64,000 nt of DNA from Hyphomicrobiales bacterium (GTDB taxonomy: Bacteria; Pseudomonadota; Alphaproteobacteria; Rhizobiales; Beijerinckiaceae), in contig JAIXYZ010000013.1 in the NCBI GenBank assembly GCA_027489955.1, forward strand, positions 372,001 through 436,000. Direction: 5' to 3'. Under the pieces are notes generated by a model. It was not told the origin of the DNA. It saw nothing but the letters and a program-made list of their open reading frames with translations, and did no database searches. Positions 21,401 through 61,122 of this stretch are shown one piece after another. The first letter of the stretch is position 1; each line of letters begins with the position of its first letter. The translations under genes were made by a program, and so were the position numbers.

Positions 21401-22693
21401 ATGAAGCTCGTGAAGAGCCTTCTCCTCGGTTCGGTGGCGGGTCTCGCCGCTGTCGCCGGGGCTCAGGCTGCGGATCTTCCGTCGAAGAAGGCCGCGCCGG
21501 TTGAGTACGTTCGTGTCTGCTCCGCTTATGGCGCAGGCTTCTTCTTCATCCCGGGCACCGACACCTGCCTTCGCGTTGGTGGTCGTGTCCGCGCTGAGTA
21601 TCGCTGGCAGGAAGCTTTCGGTCGCGCCGATAACGCTTCGGGCTTCCGCGCTCGCGGTCGTCTGAACATCGACGCTCGTACGCAGACCGCCTACGGCACC
21701 CTGCGCACGTTCTTCCGCTACGAGCTGACGGGCAACCGCGGCGTGTACGGCGCCGAGACGTCGGTGCTCGACAAGGCCTTCATCCAGTTCGCTGGTATCA
21801 CGGCCGGTCGCGCTCAGTCGTTCTTCGACTTCTACGCCCACGACTACGACTGGCGCGCTGACCTGCGCGCGTCCGACGTGACCACCCAGAACCTCCTCGC
21901 CTACACGGCGACGTTCGGTGGCGGCTTCTCGGCCACGATCTCGATCGAGGACCAGACGCAGCGTCAGACGGCCCAGGCCGGCTTCGGCAACGTGATCGCC
22001 TACGGCGGCACCCGCATGCCCGACATCGTCGCGAACCTCCGCGTCGACCAGGCTTGGGGTTCGGCCCAGATCGCCGGTGCCGTGCACCAGCTGTTCGCCA
22101 CCAACCGCGTCCCGGCTGGTCTCGCCAACACTGGCGCGTTCGTCGACACCGAGTACGGCTTCGCCCTCACCGGCGGTGTCAAGCTGAACCTGCCGATGCT
22201 CGCCGCTGGCGATACCCTCTGGCTGCAGGCTTCGTACTCCGAAGGCGCTCTGTCGTATGTCGGCGGCGCTCCGAACAACTTCGGCGGCGTTCTCATCCGT
22301 CACGCGGATGGCTATGTCGACGCGTTCGGCAACGTCAAGAAGACGAAGGCCTACTCCATCGCGGGTGCCTTCCTCCACTACTGGACCCCGTCGGTCCGTC
22401 AGGCTCTCTTCGCTTCGTACGCTCGCTATGACTACGCGGCGTCGGTGGAGACCCCGGTCAACGCTCTCGGTATCGCTCCGGCGCTCGCGCTGCGCGACAC
22501 CTCCGAGTGGAAGGTCGGCTCGAACCTGATCTGGTCGCCGGTGCGTGACTTCGACATCGGCGTCGAGGTGTTCTACACCCGCGTCGACCCGAAGGGCCGT
22601 CAGTTCACCAACAACCCGAACCAGCTCGGTACGGTCACTGTTGGTCACGAGGACCAGTTCGACGTCCGTCTGCGCTTCCAGCGCGACTTCTGA
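21401..22693 (+). CDS. Porin (Porin_2 family), paralogue 1
   Basis: A 430-residue outer-membrane trimeric porin of the alphaproteobacterial Porin_2 family, a general diffusion channel. The signal peptide is MKLVKSLLLGSVAGLAAVAG with cleavage after AQA; the mature protein starts ADLPSKKAAPVEYVRVC, the family hallmark, and two early cysteines probably form a disulfide. It ends in a beta strand with terminal Phe (RLRFQRDF), the outer-membrane assembly signal. The ATG at 21401 has GGAGG 5 nt upstream. Codon choice differs from the neighbours: many GCT, GGT and CGT codons instead of GCC, GGC and CGC, which suggests very high expression. Confidence 0.96.
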   Translation: MKLVKSLLLGSVAGLAAVAGAQAADLPSKKAAPVEYVRVCSAYGAGFFFIPGTDTCLRVGGRVRAEYRWQEAFGRADNASGFRARGRLNIDARTQTAYGTLRTFFRYELTGNRGVYGAETSVLDKAFIQFAGITAGRAQSFFDFYAHDYDWRADLRASDVTTQNLLAYTATFGGGFSATISIEDQTQRQTAQAGFGNVIAYGGTRMPDIVANLRVDQAWGSAQIAGAVHQLFATNRVPAGLANTGAFVDTEYGFALTGGVKLNLPMLAAGDTLWLQASYSEGALSYVGGAPNNFGGVLIRHADGYVDAFGNVKKTKAYSIAGAFLHYWTPSVRQALFASYARYDYAASVETPVNALGIAPALALRDTSEWKVGSNLIWSPVRDFDIGVEVFYTRVDPKGRQFTNNPNQLGTVTVGHEDQFDVRLRFQRDF

Positions 22694-22747
22694 TCTCTTT
22701 CCAGAGATCCGAGTTCGGGAAACCCCGGCCGCAAGGCCGGGGTTTTT
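22692..22747 (+). terminator. Double stem-loop terminator after porin 1
   Basis: A first hairpin GATCTCT-TTCC-AGAGATC (22692-22709) starts at the stop codon. It is followed by CCCCGGCC-GCAA-GGCCGGGG (22723-22742) and a TTTTT run, a classic intrinsic terminator. Confidence 0.9.
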
Positions 22748-22997
22748 CGTTTGGGCTCCGCGTCCGTGCCAGACGCGCGGATGGCCGGTCCGCCAGTGCC
22801 CCCTTCGCATCCCCCGGCCTTCACGGAAGCTCTAGATGGGAGCACCCATCGCCTCGCTGCCGGCCAAGGCTTCACCACCCGCGTCATGCGCGATCGGCCG
22901 CCCGCGGCGTGGACGAGTCGCCGGCCAAGCCTGCCTGTGGGGATGCCCGCTTTCGCGCCAGCCCTGCCGATTATGCGAGGCTAAAAATGCATCAACC

Positions 22998-23018
22998 GGC
23001 GCTCAAAAATTGAGCGCC
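22998..23018. promoter_or_regulatory. Perfect hairpin/palindrome in the porin 1 - porin 2 spacer
   Basis: Nine-base arms GGCGCTCAA and TTGAGCGCC flank AAA. The element is bracketed by two ATGCAT hexamers (22987-22992 and 23019-23024). It lies 185 bp before porin 2 in a spacer of 509 bp (22694-23202) that otherwise shows no gene; an AT-rich stretch at about 23020-23080 after it could hold the porin 2 promoter. It may be an operator or a leader stem-loop; the lack of a T-run argues against a terminator. Confidence 0.5.
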
Positions 23019-23202
23019 ATGCATAAGTATCCACCAAGTAAATACGTCAAGATGACCTTGTTGTTGTGGATTCGTCACACCGAGTCTGCTGCGTGCATGC
23101 TTGGACGCCCATGATGTCGTCGATGTATTGCGGTGCAGCACCGTTTCCTTATGGTCGTGAAACCCAAGGTCGGTCACGCCGGCCCAATAGCGGGAGATTG
23201 GA

Positions 23203-24447
23203 ATGGGTTTCGGTCGTTCGATTCTTTTAGCTTCCTGTGCGGCACTTGCGCCGGTCGCGGCCAGCGCCGCTGATCTGCCGTCCCGCAAGGCGGCGCCCGT
23301 CGAGTACGTGCGCATCTGCTCGGTGCACGGCGAGGGCTTCTTTTACATTCCCGGCACGCAGACCTGCATCCAGATCGGCGGGCGTGTCCGCGCCGAGTAC
23401 CGGTATGTCGACCCCAAGGGCGCGTTCCCGGGCCTCGGCCGCGCCAACGACGCCATCGGTTTCCGGGCGCTCGGCCGCCTAAACATCGATGCCCGCACGC
23501 AGACCGAATACGGCACGCTGCGCACCTATATCCGCTACGAGCTGACCGGCGATCGCGGCAATTACGGCGCCCCGGGCTTCTCCGTCGTCGACAAGGCCTT
23601 CATACAGTTCGCCGGCATCACGGCGGGCCGCGTCCAGTCGTTCTTCGACTTCTACGCCAATGACTGGAACTACTCGACCGGCATCCTGGGCGGCTTCGGC
23701 TCCGATTCCGGCAACAGCAACGTGCTGGCCTACACCGCCACGTTCGGCGGCGGCTTCTCGGCGACGATCTCGCTCGAGGACGGCACGATCCGCGAGGTCA
23801 ACTCCGCGGCTTACGGCCGGGCGGGCACCCGCGCCCCGGACCTGGTCGGCAACCTGCTGTACGAAGGCGGCTGGGGTAACGCCCAGCTCTCCGCCGCGGT
23901 GCACCAGCTGCGCTCCATTGCCCGCACGCCGATCGGCAACTTCGTCGACACCGAGTATGGCTTTGCCATCCAGGGCGGCGTGAAGATCAACCTGCCGATG
24001 CTGGCGGCCGGCGACGTCCTGTGGCTGCAGGGCGCCTATGCCGACGGCGCGGTGAGCTATCTCGGCGTCACCGGCAACCTCGCGGCCGGCAAGGTCGCCG
24101 CCTTCGCCACCGACGCTCTGGTCATCGGCAACGGCCTGTCGACGACCAAGGGCTGGAGCGCCACCGCGGCCTTCACCCATTACTGGACCCCGAGCTTCCG
24201 CTCGTCGATCCTCGGCAACTACACCTATCTCGACTACTCGCGTCTTGCGGCCCCGGTCGCGGTCGACACGCGCGTCCTGACCGGCGTGCTCCAGACGGTG
24301 TGGTCGCCGGTGACCAACTTCGACATCGGCCTCGAGCTGGCCTATACGCGCCTCGATCCGAAGGGCGTCCAGGTCATCCTCCCGCAGCTCATCAAGAGCT
24401 CGGACGACATCCTCGAAGCACGCCTGCGCTTCCAGCGCGACTTCTGA
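23203..24447 (+). CDS. Porin (Porin_2 family), paralogue 2
   Basis: A 414-residue paralogue of the preceding porin. The signal peptide MGFGRSILLASCAALAPVAA is cleaved after ASA, giving the mature start ADLPSRKAAPVEYVRIC. Both proteins share the strand SVVDKAFIQFAGITAGR-like segment and the C-terminal RLRFQRDF, but the loops differ, for example YVDPKGAFPGLGRANDAIG here, so permeability probably differs. GGGAG lies 6 nt before the ATG. Codon use is the ordinary C/G-ending pattern of the genome, unlike porin 1, so this copy is probably less strongly expressed or separately regulated. The long spacer and the separate terminators indicate independent transcripts. Confidence 0.95.
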   Translation: MGFGRSILLASCAALAPVAASAADLPSRKAAPVEYVRICSVHGEGFFYIPGTQTCIQIGGRVRAEYRYVDPKGAFPGLGRANDAIGFRALGRLNIDARTQTEYGTLRTYIRYELTGDRGNYGAPGFSVVDKAFIQFAGITAGRVQSFFDFYANDWNYSTGILGGFGSDSGNSNVLAYTATFGGGFSATISLEDGTIREVNSAAYGRAGTRAPDLVGNLLYEGGWGNAQLSAAVHQLRSIARTPIGNFVDTEYGFAIQGGVKINLPMLAAGDVLWLQGAYADGAVSYLGVTGNLAAGKVAAFATDALVIGNGLSTTKGWSATAAFTHYWTPSFRSSILGNYTYLDYSRLAAPVAVDTRVLTGVLQTVWSPVTNFDIGLELAYTRLDPKGVQVILPQLIKSSDDILEARLRFQRDF

Positions 24448-44193: not shown

Positions 44194-44364
44194 GGTCGTT
44201 CTCCTCTGTTGCGGGGTTTACGCCTGAGCGACACTCCCTGACCGTGACCATGCTCCCGACCGCGACCGTCCGCGGTGCGTTTCGGCACGCGTGATGCGCC
44301 CGCCTTGACTTGGCCATGCCGTGCCCACAGAACGGCGGCCCTGTCGACACGAGTGGACGATCCG

Positions 44365-45291
44365 ATGAACGCCGCCCCCGCCGTCACGATGAGCCCGGAC
44401 CGGTCCTTCCAGGGCCTGATCCTGACCCTCCAGCGCTTCTGGGCCGAGCGGGGCTGCGTGATCCTCCAGCCCTACGACATGGAAGTCGGCGCCGGCACGT
44501 TCCACCCGGCGACGACGCTGCGCGCGCTGGGGCCGAAGACGTGGAATGCGGCCTATGTCCAGCCCTCCCGCCGCCCCAAGGATGGCCGCTACGGCGAGAA
44601 CCCCAACCGGCTCCAGCACTATTACCAGTTCCAGGTGATCCTGAAGCCGTCGCCGCCGAACCTGCAGGAGCTCTACCTGGAATCGCTCGCCGCGATCGGC
44701 GTGGACCTCGCGCTTCACGACGTGCGCTTCGTCGAGGATGACTGGGAGAGCCCGACGCTGGGCGCCTGGGGCCTCGGCTGGGAATGCTGGTGCGACGGGA
44801 TGGAAGTGTCCCAGTTCACTTACTTCCAGCAGGTGGCGGGCTTCGAATGCGCGCCCGTCGCGGGTGAGCTCACCTACGGGCTGGAGCGCCTGGCCATGTA
44901 TGTCCAGGGCGTCGAGAACGTCTACGACCTCAATTTCAACGGCGGCGAGGGCGACGCCAAGGTCACCTACGGCGACGTCTTCCTCCAGGCCGAGCAGGAA
45001 TATTCGCGGCACAATTTCGAGCACGCCGACACGCAGATGCTCTTCCGGCACTTCAAGGACGCGGAGGCCGAGTGCCGCGCGCTTCTGGACAAGGGAGGCG
45101 AGGGCGAGCGCCATCTCATGGCGCTGCCGGCCTATGACCAGTGCATCAAGGCGAGCCACGTGTTCAACCTGCTGGATGCCCGCGGCGTCATCTCGGTCAC
45201 CGAGCGGCAGAGCTACATCCTGCGCGTGCGCGAACTTGCCAAGGCCTGCGGCGCGGCCTGGCTCAGGACCGAGGGCGGCGGGGTCGCGTGA
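44365..45291 (+). CDS. glyQ: Glycyl-tRNA synthetase alpha subunit
   Basis: A 308-residue catalytic subunit of the alpha2-beta2 bacterial GlyRS. The family is clear from [60 protein letters not shown] and the active-site region [18 protein letters not shown] 44365 is taken; an ATG at 44389 (MSPDRSF) is also possible. The stop overlaps the VOC gene start (GTGA). The beta subunit begins only 2.6 kb downstream. Confidence 0.97.
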
Positions 45292-47803: not shown

Positions 47804-47925
47804 ATTCGCGTCTCGACAGGCCGCGCCGGCCTTTGTATGCCTCGGCTCTCCGATGAACCCGGCCGCCGCCTCCAGGCGGCCGATGCTCCGGCCTCGTCGG
47901 GCCGGAGGGCGAGAGATCCTGACGC

Positions 47926-50394
47926 ATGTCCGACCTGTTGCTCGAGCTTTTCTCCGAGGAAATTCCCGCCCGCATGCAGCGGCGCGCGGCCGAGGACCTG
48001 AGGAAGCTCGTCACCGATGCCCTCGTCGAGCGCGGCCTCCTCTATGAGGGCGCCAAGGCCTACGCGACCCCGCGGCGCCTCGCGCTGCAGGTCGTCGGCC
48101 TGCCCGCCAAGGGCCAGGACGTGCGCGAGGAGCGCCGCGGCCCGCGGGTGGGGGCGCCGCAGGCGGCGGTGGACGGGTTCGTCCGCTCCGCCGGGCTCAC
48201 CTCCACCGAGCAGGTGAAGGTGGAATCGACGCCCAAGGGCGATTTCTACGTCGCGCTGATCGAAAAGCCCGGCCGGCCGACCGTGGAGGTCCTGGCCGAG
48301 ATCCTGCCTGCCATCATCCGCGCCTTCCCGTGGCCGAAATCCATGCGCTGGGGCGCCGCCTCCCGCGAAACCGGCTCGCTGCGCTGGGTGCGCCCGCTGC
48401 ACTCCATCGTCTGCACCTTCGGGCCGGAGACGGAGGAGCCGGAGATCGTCCCCTTCGAGGTCGACGGCATCGCCTCCGGCGACGTCACCTACGGCCACCG
48501 CTTCATGGCCCCGCAGCCGATCCGCGTGCGCCGCTTCGACGATTACGTCGCCGCGCTGGAGAAGGCAAAGGTCGTGCTCGACGCCGACCGCCGCAAGGAG
48601 ATCATCCTCGCCGACGCCCGCAACCTCGCCTTCGCGCAGGGGTTCGAGCTGGTGGAGGACGAGGGCCTGCTGGAGGAGGTGGCCGGGCTCGTCGAATGGC
48701 CCGTCGTGCTCATGGGCCAGTTCGAGGAGCGCTTCCTCGCCATTCCCGGCGAGGCGATCCGCGCCACGATCCGCGCCAACCAGAAATGCTTCGTGCTGAA
48801 GCGCGCCGACGGCACGCTGGCCGACCGCTTCATCCTCGTCTCCAACATCGTGGCCAGCGACGGCGGGACGGCCATCGTCGCCGGCAACGGCCGCGTCGTG
48901 CGCGCCCGGCTGTCGGACGCCGCCTTCTTCTGGGAGACCGACAAGAAGACGAAGCTGGAGGACCGGCTGGAGAAGCTGAAATCCATCGTCTTCCACGAAA
49001 AGCTCGGCACGCAATACGAGCGCGTGGAGCGCATCGCGGCCTTGGCGAAGGAGCTGGCGCCGGTCGTCGGTGCCGATCCGGCGCTGGCCGAGCGCGCCGC
49101 CCGCCTCGCCAAGGCCGACCTCGTCACCGAGATGGTCGGCGAATTCCCCGAGCTGCAGGGCCTGATGGGCCGCTATTACGCGGCCGGGGAGGGCGTCGAG
49201 CCGTCCGTCGCCATTGCCATCGAGGACCATTACAAGCCGCAAGGCCCCTCCGACCGGGTGCCGACCGATCCGGTCGCCGTGGCCGTGGCGCTCGCCGACA
49301 AGCTCGACACGCTGGTGGGCTTCTGGGCGATCGACGAGAAGCCGACGGGCAGCAAGGACCCTTATGCGCTGCGACGGGCTGCGCTGGGCGTGATCCGGCT
49401 GGTGCTGGAGAACGGCTTGCAGCCAAAACTTGAGCAGTTTGTGCAGCTTATATACTCGATGTATCTGCTGAGACTACACACAGCTGACTTATTTGTCTTT
49501 ATGCATGATCTGGAAGGAAAAGGACATATTTCGATTACTGCTTATTTTACAGATGATGAACGCTTCTTCCGCGCAGTAGATTTTTCGAAGCCAGCCTATA
49601 TTTGTCGGCCGCGAGATAAAAACGATGATCGCAATTCTGAAGATTCATTGATTATAACTTTAGGGCTGAATCATTATTACGAGATTATATCTGAGATAAT
49701 ATCCGCAAAATCCTTGTTTGAGCTACTCCTCGCCTTCGTCCACGACCGCCTGAAGGTCTATCTGCGTGACAAGGGCGCGCGGCACGATCTCATCGATGCG
49801 GTGCTGGCCCCGGTTTCCCCCTCCCCCCCTGTGGGGGAGGGCAGGGAGGGGGGTACGGCCCCCGCAGGCTCGATGCCGGCCGTCGCAGACGGCATCGGCA
49901 CACCCCCTTCTCCGTCTCTCCCCCACAAGGGGGGAGAGGGCCCACACGCGCCGGCGGCCGACGACCTGCTCATGGTCGTGCGCCGCGTCGAGGCGCTGGG
50001 ACGGTTCCTCGAAACAGAGGACGGGGCGAACCTGCTCGCAGGCTATCGCCGCGCCGCCAATATCCTGAAGGCCGAGGAGAAGAAGGACGGGGCCGGCGCG
50101 TTCGACGGTGCGGTCGATTACGACCTCATCGCCGACAAGGGCCAGATCGAGGAGAAGCTTCTCGCGGTCACGCTCGCCAAGGCGGCCGAAGCCGCCCGCG
50201 CCGCGGTCGCCGCCGAGGATTTCGAGGGCGCGATGAAGGCGCTCGCCGAGCTCCGGCCCGCGGTCGACGCATTCTTCGACAAGGTCACCGTCAATGCGGA
50301 GGATCCGCCGGTGCGCGTCAACCGCCTGCGGCTCCTGAACGCCCTGCGCGCCGCAACCCGCGAGGTCGCCGATTTCGGCCGCATCGGCGGGTAG
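47926..50394 (+). CDS. glyS: Glycyl-tRNA synthetase beta subunit with two in-frame insertions
   Basis: An 822-residue tRNA-binding beta subunit; bacterial GlyS is usually about 690-750. [20 protein letters not shown] is the typical start, [20 protein letters not shown] the conserved mid segment, and [14 protein letters not shown] the anticodon-binding end. Between VLENGL and the conserved [19 protein letters not shown] lie about 100 residues encoded by an AT-rich block (49423-49728), and between HDLIDAVLA and [14 protein letters not shown] lie about 45 residues encoded by a palindromic repeat (49815-49941). The frame is intact throughout, so the protein is probably functional with extended linkers. 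Confidence 0.95.
49423..49728. other. AT-rich in-frame block inside glyS
   Basis: About 306 bp with roughly 38 % G+C by hand count (280 bases counted), against about 65 % in the line just before it. Codons change abruptly from C/G-ending to A/T-ending at both edges. It encodes about 100 residues (for example [20 protein letters not shown] and [20 protein letters not shown]) that I do not recognise as GlyS. No terminal repeats are obvious, so it is either an acquired block or a fast-evolving linker. Confidence 0.75.
49815..49941. repeat. GC-rich double-hairpin repeat inside glyS
   Basis: Two stem-loops, CCCTCCCCC-CCTGT-GGGGGAGGG (49819-49841) and CTCTCCCCC-ACAA-GGGGGGAGAG (49916-49938), bracket a central segment. 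Together they have the layout of the CCCTCCCC palindromic repeats common between genes in Hyphomicrobiales. Here the element is read through in frame ([11 protein letters not shown] to [10 protein letters not shown]). Confidence 0.75.
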
Positions 50395-50559
50395 ACGCAG
50401 CGCCCGCGCGCGATCGGCGCTGCCGGAAAGTCGCGCCGGGCAGGGCCGCCGGTCGCCGGCATGCGCCCGTCACGCGTGCCCCTCGCGGGCGCAATCGCCG
50501 TGGAACCCAAGCGGTGTGGACGCCGTTGTCTGGCGATCCATCCGCAAAAGGGGCTTCCC

Positions 50560-55034: not shown

Positions 55035-55112
55035 GTCATTGCGAGCGCAGCGAAGCAATCCAGAGCGGTTGCCGCCGGTGGATTGCTTCGTCGCCCTGCT
55101 CCTCGCAATGAC
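55035..55112. repeat. Repeat, GTCATTGCGAGC family, copy 1
   Basis: Inverted termini GTCATTGCGAGC and GCTCCTCGCAATGAC, with inner arms GCGAAGCAATCCAG and GGATTGCTTCGTCG. The same element is at 60716. It is a REP/MITE-like hairpin of a kind frequent in Hyphomicrobiales. Confidence 0.85.
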
Positions 55113-55192
55113 GGAAGCTTTCCACAACGCCCCTCTTGATGAGGCGCTCAGGCGAAGCCGAGCTGAGAAGCGCACACAGCTGGCCGCGACCC

Positions 55193-55290
55193 GATCCCTC
55201 CCATTCATGGGAGGGTGGCGCGAAGCGCCGGGTGGGCCCACCCGTTCGATGCTGCCGCGCCGGCCACCCTCCCGTCACGGGGAGGAATCA
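55193..55290. repeat. Repeat, GATCCCTCCC family, copy 1
   Basis: Starts GATCCCTCCC and ends GGGGAGGAATCA; the core GGGTGGCGCGAAGCGCCGGG and the inner CCGGCCACCCTCCC match the copy at 60861. A palindromic element with a perfect GCGCGAAGCGC-type hairpin. Confidence 0.8.
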
Positions 55291-55331
55291 GAGCGCAGAT
55301 GCCCGAATGCTGGCGGATGCCGAACCCAGGA

Positions 55332-55432
55332 CGTGGATCGGTCGGGCAGGCCAGTTCATGACGGGTGGGGCATCGCGTCGCGAAGCAGCATCGCGCGCCC
55401 CGTCATGCTCGGCCCTGTGCCGAGCATCCACG
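55332..55432. repeat. Repeat, CGTGGAT / ATCCACG family, copy 1
   Basis: Bounded by CGTGGAT and ATCCACG and containing CCCGTCATGCTCGGCC with GTGCCGAGCATCCACG, as in the copy at 61003. It ends 8 bp before the nadC stop codon. Confidence 0.75.
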
Positions 55433-60715: not shown

Positions 60716-60796
60716 GTCATTGCGAGCGTCAGCGAAGCAATCCAGGCAGCGCGTGCGACCGCTGGATTGCTTCGTCGCTTCGCTCCTCGCAATGAC
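60716..60796. repeat. Repeat, GTCATTGCGAGC family, copy 2
   Basis: The same termini and inner arms (GCGAAGCAATCCAG, TGGATTGCTTCGTCG) as the copy at 55035, 81 bp long. It opens the 597-bp spacer 60674-61270, which contains three repeats and no gene. Confidence 0.85.
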
Positions 60797-60860
60797 GGCG
60801 GTGGAAACGGCACGGGGCGATCGTGACGCGTTGAATAGCGTGCGGTGCCAGCCGCGCTGT

Positions 60861-60978
60861 GATCCCTCCCCGCCAGGGGAGGGTGGCGCGAAGCGCCGGG
60901 TGGGGCCTACGAGCGGATAAGAGGCCCACCCGTCCGGCGCTGGCGCGCCGGCCACCCTCCCTTGTCAGGGAGGGATCA
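60861..60978. repeat. Repeat, GATCCCTCCC family, copy 2
   Basis: Termini GATCCCTCCC and GGGAGGGATCA, the GGGTGGCGCGAAGCGCCGGG core, and the inner CCGGCCACCCTCCC found in the copy at 55193. Confidence 0.82.
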
Positions 60979-61002
60979 CGACGCGGATGTCCCGACCGAA
61001 GG

Positions 61003-61122
61003 CGTGGATGGTCGGGACAGGCCCGACCATGACGGCCGGGTCAGGACGGCGTTTGGTGACATAAGCCGGAAGACCCGTCGTCTCGTCGCCCGTCATGCTC
61101 GGCCTCGTGCCGAGCGTCCACG
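61003..61122. repeat. Repeat, CGTGGAT / GTCCACG family, copy 2
   Basis: CGTGGATGGTCGGGACAGGC at the left, CCCGTCATGCTCGGCC and GTGCCGAGCGTCCACG at the right, matching the copy at 55332 in order and in ends. Confidence 0.75.

Follow-up and report, generated by a model that had tools for sequence, protein, structure and literature searches.

What is a stretch of AT-rich DNA, foreign in its composition, doing in the middle of a gene for glycyl-tRNA synthetase? Aminoacyl-tRNA synthetases have the reputation of being very conserved. The case comes from 64,000 nucleotides of a Hyphomicrobiales bacterium (assembly GCA_027489955.1, contig JAIXYZ010000013.1, positions 372,001 to 436,000 of the forward strand), called the window in what follows, and coordinates are those of the window. 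The gene, glyS, occupies 47926-50394 on the forward strand and is an open reading frame for the 822-residue beta subunit. It codes for a full-length member of the family: PF02092 matches residues 4-628 (632 bits), TIGR00211 matches with 761 bits, DALR_1 is present, and 7yse and 7eiv are solved homologues. The alpha subunit gene, glyQ, lies upstream on the same strand (44275-45291; PF02091, 479 bits, the Pfam match beginning at residue 45 of the open reading frame), and a phoX-like gene (PF05787, 45593-47752) separates the two. In G001, a genome of the same genus, the DNA upstream of about 47820 is unrelated to the window. Elsewhere, the window contains two tandem, repeated genes at 21618-24447 (matched pieces 76-89% identical), which we take to code for outer-membrane porins, and two copies of a composite repeat of about 370 nt with GC-rich inverted parts, at 55064-55432 and 60748-61122, some 5.7 kb apart.

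The preliminary description of this DNA had reported an in-frame block of low GC content in glyS, crossed by neither frameshift nor stop, and both points are borne out. The block covers 49423-49728 on the forward strand, that is 102 codons or residues 500-601 of GlyS, between the conserved VLENGL motif and a conserved segment of 15 residues; a change-point fit puts it at 49425-49727, with a GC content of 0.382 against about 70% around it. Its conserved flanks, on the same strand, lie at 49363-49422 on the left (20 residues) and at 49729-49773 on the right, the latter including Arg608. By codon position, GC content is 0.49, 0.29 and 0.36 in the block and 0.74, 0.45 and 0.91 in the remainder of glyS, and nowhere else in the 64 kb does a 300-nt segment fall below 0.50 (mean 0.688, SD 0.041, minimum 0.38). 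The frame of 822 residues is open throughout. When its bases are shuffled, only 4 of 2000 sequences lack stops, and the block's other five frames hold 5-10 stops each. Its translation is 42% hydrophobic, with an entropy of 4.0 bits. The same gene carries a second, unrelated in-frame insert, GC-rich and palindromic, before the anticodon-binding domain (approximately 49813-49955, forward strand), as alignment with G001, which shares it, indicates. Opposite window position 48810, where the window has none, G001 (L040) carries a further insert of this type, in frame, GC-rich and palindromic, about 141 nt long.

Is the block simply a normal part of GlyS? This would have told against the initial reading, and G001 speaks otherwise: its glyS flanks are 92% identical to those of the window at the nucleotide level (93% on the left, 89% on the right), and it has a GC-rich linker of 31 residues instead of the block. 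Relatives of the block do exist, further away. Blocks that are 26-30% identical to it are found in G033, a genome of the same family, and in a contig from a metagenome-assembled genome, L071, while a profile matches a block in G296, which belongs to another family (E 9e-6). At an E value of 0.1, the profile matched 3 of 397 genomes of the order, namely the window genome, G296 and, weakly, G405; the G405 match (E 0.09) was treated as chance, as were other weak matches to the block (E 0.2-3.5). The genomes that hold relatives of the block are not the closest kin of the window by GlyS. As far as sequence searches tell, credible homologues seem to occur only in GlyS, at the same site. Hence the suggestion that the block is an acquired domain in a linker gains support: it is absent from G001, its composition is foreign, and distant GlyS proteins have credible homologues in the same place. 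Searches with the block alone, recommended at the outset, did find remote homologues in GlyS; on the structural side they gave little. Two AlphaFold models, built with only three sequences, reached pLDDT values of 43.5 and 51.9, too poor to show a fold, and the model of the block by itself, a helix, strands and a helix, is of too low a quality to count as evidence. Profile matches in the PDB were designed barrels, at E 0.25 and above; Pfam and NCBIfam gave no match to the block, and the best match in PHROGs had an E value of 0.35.

Two other origins have to be weighed at this point. The genome is in 13 contigs, and one may wonder whether the block results from an assembly chimera or from contamination; this is scarcely credible, because homologous blocks hold the same position, in frame, in G033, G296 and L071. 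A remnant of a mobile element, an intein or an intron would account for the foreign composition and the sharp edges, and the mobile-element form of this idea had been put forward at first. It finds no support in the data. A protein search of the window genome found a single copy of the block, at its own place; terminal repeats and a duplicated target were not seen; the reading frame is kept open; the Pfam intein model matched neither whole GlyS nor the block; and no RNA element appeared in Rfam over 47900-50500 at E values up to 1. Searches of phages and plasmids (E up to 1) and of viral contigs yielded no relative of the block. Palindromy amounts to one imperfect palindrome of 13 nt and a pair of 9 nt, which is not what a palindromic repeat element looks like. 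We consider this origin largely refuted, and highly improbable.

The site itself is a more telling object than the block. Linkers at this place were compared at 165 loci (164 genomes of the order, together with L071), in a sample of one genome per species that was mostly ranked by similarity to the window, not drawn at random; neither genomes nor pairs are independent. A sequence pattern read the linker in 162 loci; G051, G046 and G097 escaped it, the linkers of G051 and G046 being visible otherwise. Lengths range from 22 to 183 residues in these 162 loci (25-115 in 147 of them), and 60 of the linkers have at least 70 residues. What fills the site is often unrelated from one genome of the order to the next, while the 75-residue segment before it is present in 381 of 397 genomes. 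GC content is lower in the linker than in its flanks in 143 of the first 152 linkers read. In a comparison of 48 full-length GlyS proteins, from 54 loci, the site was the most length-variable place of the protein (SD 38.8 residues); the next two (SD 16.7 and 13.5), of which residues 629-677, the region of the second insert, come first, are where the window genome or G001 has its GC-rich palindromic inserts, in frame. Some glyS linkers (L020, L101, L078) hold peptide pieces such as RDKPGHD, presumably typical of rhizobial palindromic repeats.

In the loci sampled, long linkers are commoner in this order than outside it. In other alphaproteobacterial orders, where 40 of 90 matches were fetched and yielded 37 linkers, 3 reach 70 residues, against 60 of 162 in the order (p 0.0004, the genomes being non-independent). 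Outside Alphaproteobacteria, 20 matches together with Escherichia coli gave 17 linkers for 21 loci, and none reaches 70 residues; the pattern truncated four of the 17, at 23 residues, and two of these four, E. coli K-12 and G717, otherwise read 40. The glyS gene of E. coli is covered over at least 80% of its length in 5375 of 5426 E. coli genomes, and the 20 matches listed are covered in full. Order-wide, the site thus appears to be hypervariable rather than a fixed feature of GlyS, a variation that could not be seen from the window alone. As to whether the block is lineage-specific, a check suggested at the outset, the block itself is rare in the order, yet it is no isolated accident: the same site varies across the order. 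The interpretation of the block given in the preliminary description is, on the whole, partly supported. We recognised no description of such a GlyS site in open-licence PMC papers.

What are these inserts? At E 0.01, four libraries (Pfam, NCBIfam, PHROGs and PADLOC) gave no match to any of 71 long inserts, the window block being one of them. With three more from other orders they make 74 long cores, which iterative profiles sorted into eight groups with several members, five of these spanning bacterial families, and 50 singletons. The first step of this procedure gave 19 real pairs against about four decoy matches per decoy set at an identical cut-off, the best decoy having an E value of 0.0001. 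The best-supported links across families are those of the window group with G296 and of G016 with G355 (E 8e-6); the remaining cross-family links are weaker. The pairing of G171 with G415 is unsure, and a connection between G027 and the window group was discarded as a likely chance match, given the decoy rate. Two further group profiles, run against 249 genomes each, matched strongly only at known GlyS places (three and one), their weak matches (nine and one, E 0.009-0.05) being treated as chance. For all three insert families searched, every strong match therefore fell within GlyS. An alignment of 28 inserts of 82-93 residues displayed no common pattern to the eye, and iterative profiles joined only small groups, so that a single ancestral domain family was rejected.

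The long inserts have the appearance of proteins. Hydrophobic content is 0.315 in their cores against 0.309 in the 100 residues upstream, and, judged on composition only, neither the block nor the long cores show the low hydrophobic content and low complexity of disordered variable regions. There are 31 linkers of 83-93 residues against five of 70-82 and five of 94-106, in bins set after the lengths were seen. The amino-acid make-up of the long inserts is that of a folded domain. Where a long insert is shared between genomes, synonymous changes outnumber nonsynonymous ones: 19 to 1 in G104/G139, 15 to 4 in G441/G469, 27 to 14 in G104/G262, 28 to 14 in G139/G262 and 33.5 to 18.5 in G032/G559, with dN/dS of 0.01-0.12 for these five pairs. 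The ratio is 0.23 in G033/L071 (5 and 4 changes), 0.47 in the distant long pair G004/G010, and anywhere from 0.07 to 1.5 in nine pairs with short linkers. Compared with the flanks, synonymous changes in the insert are fewer in G033/L071 (p 0.02) and more numerous in G104/G139 (p 0.04). Shared long inserts are, by these counts, under purifying selection, and because of this the idea of a purely relaxed region, also voiced early on, finds no support for long inserts in general. This selection may reflect just the need for the insert to fold. The homologues of the window block are all remote, and its own selection falls outside the dN/dS comparisons.

How does one insert give way to another? When pairs of genomes are ranked by the identity of the 150 residues upstream (the pairs overlap, and short linkers are included), the 16 pairs with an identity of at least 95% divide into 6 that share the insert core and ten with unrelated cores; sharing is seen in none of 32 pairs at 90-95%, and in 2 of 221 at 85-90%. 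G012 and G511 are a case in point: upstream they are 99.3% identical, yet their linkers measure 100 and 54 residues and have cores that are unrelated. The junctions are sharp: in nine inspected pairs the left edge, about LENG, and the right edge, about LL[AS]FF, shift by no more than a few codons, with the exception of G299/G069, where the right edge of G299 is several codons further on. Pairs are, by their sequences, apparently close to all-or-none, with either a similar or an unrelated core. Flanks beside unlike inserts are somewhat less alike than flanks beside like ones (107 and 18 pairs; 66 and 8 pairs); when each genome enters a single pair (15 and 6 pairs), the p value is 0.14 upstream and 0.04 downstream, so that this signal of exchange is suggestive only.

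Where in the enzyme does the site lie? In E. coli the linker begins near residue 493 and is followed by GRFRAW, at 530. The HD domain comprises residues 341-540, according to PMC8464048, and its Arg531 contacts the acceptor stem of the tRNA, according to PMC9908026. Since Arg608 of the window protein matches Arg531, in an alignment made by eye, the block would end seven residues upstream of a tRNA contact.

We consider it probable that GlyS of this order has, in its HD domain, a hypervariable site at which whole translated cassettes are exchanged, and that the block is one of the alleles of this site. At one genome per species, the comparisons show no swap directly. Recombination in the conserved flanks would put a new cassette in the place of the resident one, its source being other glyS alleles or an unsampled pool; searches of phages, plasmids, viral contigs and genomes of the order found no donor or pool. 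The window species may have taken up its AT-rich cassette recently, the composition being as yet unadjusted. On the HD domain, next to the acceptor stem, the cassette would make up a small domain of its own, at a site that may be under diversifying selection.

The main rival, which we think somewhat unlikely, is a loop tolerant of insertion, where foreign or new DNA is accepted as long as it leaves the reading frame open and yields a product that folds, the inserts then drifting with no function. Some inserts, such as those of G011, G461 and G492, seem to descend from palindromic repeats, two other places in GlyS also accept in-frame GC-rich repeats, the dN/dS of short linkers rises to 1.5, and 50 of the 74 long cores are singletons; all this agrees with mere tolerance. 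Random inserts, however, are not expected to show low dN/dS where long ones are shared, nor an excess of lengths at 83-93 residues with a folded-type composition, nor families that recur across bacterial families. One may also think of one domain family evolving extremely fast in place, so that alignments fail without any swapping. It would explain the common size of 83-93 residues and the few distant groups that are just detectable, but it is improbable in the face of pairs that are nearly all-or-none, such as the one with linkers of 100 and 54 residues beside near-identical upstream sequence, and of shared long inserts that change slowly.

If swapped cassettes are what we see, why should variety be favoured? 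The most likely cause, which we put forward with low confidence, is escape from some factor that binds GlyS, for example a toxin, an inhibitor made by a competitor or a protein of a phage. More tentatively still, the site may hold a recognition cassette with many alleles, whose diversity would be maintained by conflict with a factor that attacks or reads glycyl-tRNA synthetase. We know of no antagonist that acts on GlyS. An indel upstream of glyS is mentioned in work on phage-coevolved populations of Vibrio, which is too indirect to count. Were the reading true, unrelated and constrained inserts beside a tRNA contact would suggest that translation is under a selective pressure so far unrecognised, which might be a phage or competitor factor acting on the enzyme. 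The inserts also supply many orphan, apparently folded sequences absent from the four domain libraries searched, and, with reference to protein engineering, the site is a natural permissive position.

Several known systems resemble this one in part. Palindromic elements are reportedly inserted in coding genes, as in Rickettsia. They too are in frame, and the GC-rich insert at 49813-49955 has the look of one, whereas the AT-rich block is neither a long palindrome nor repeated. The known domains inserted in aminoacyl-tRNA synthetases are stable within lineages; GlyS inserts, by contrast, differ between species of one genus. Such domains are otherwise similar to the block as extra sequence within a synthetase (PMC8464048). 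Variable regions of housekeeping proteins share with the GlyS site a lineage-wide variability within conserved proteins (PMC9425974). Those regions are predicted to be disordered, whereas the long GlyS inserts look as if swapped in one piece and are of folded-type composition; 'glycyl' is a word absent from the main text of that paper. A parallel in layout is offered by the C-terminal tips of Rhs proteins, as presented in PMC2935791, where their variety is attributed to substitution from a large pool and not to rapid divergence. In both cases a conserved core carries unrelated, exchangeable pieces, each conserved in relatives. Rhs tips (PMC2935791) are terminal, whereas the GlyS block is internal, at residues 500-601 of 822; displaced Rhs tips remain downstream, whereas the search of the window genome gave the block alone, being blind to displaced pieces unrelated to it; and the GlyS piece differs from them in lying in a translation enzyme. 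By analogy, the conflict reading would liken the GlyS module, tentatively, to specificity or toxin-tip modules, placed here in an enzyme essential for translation.
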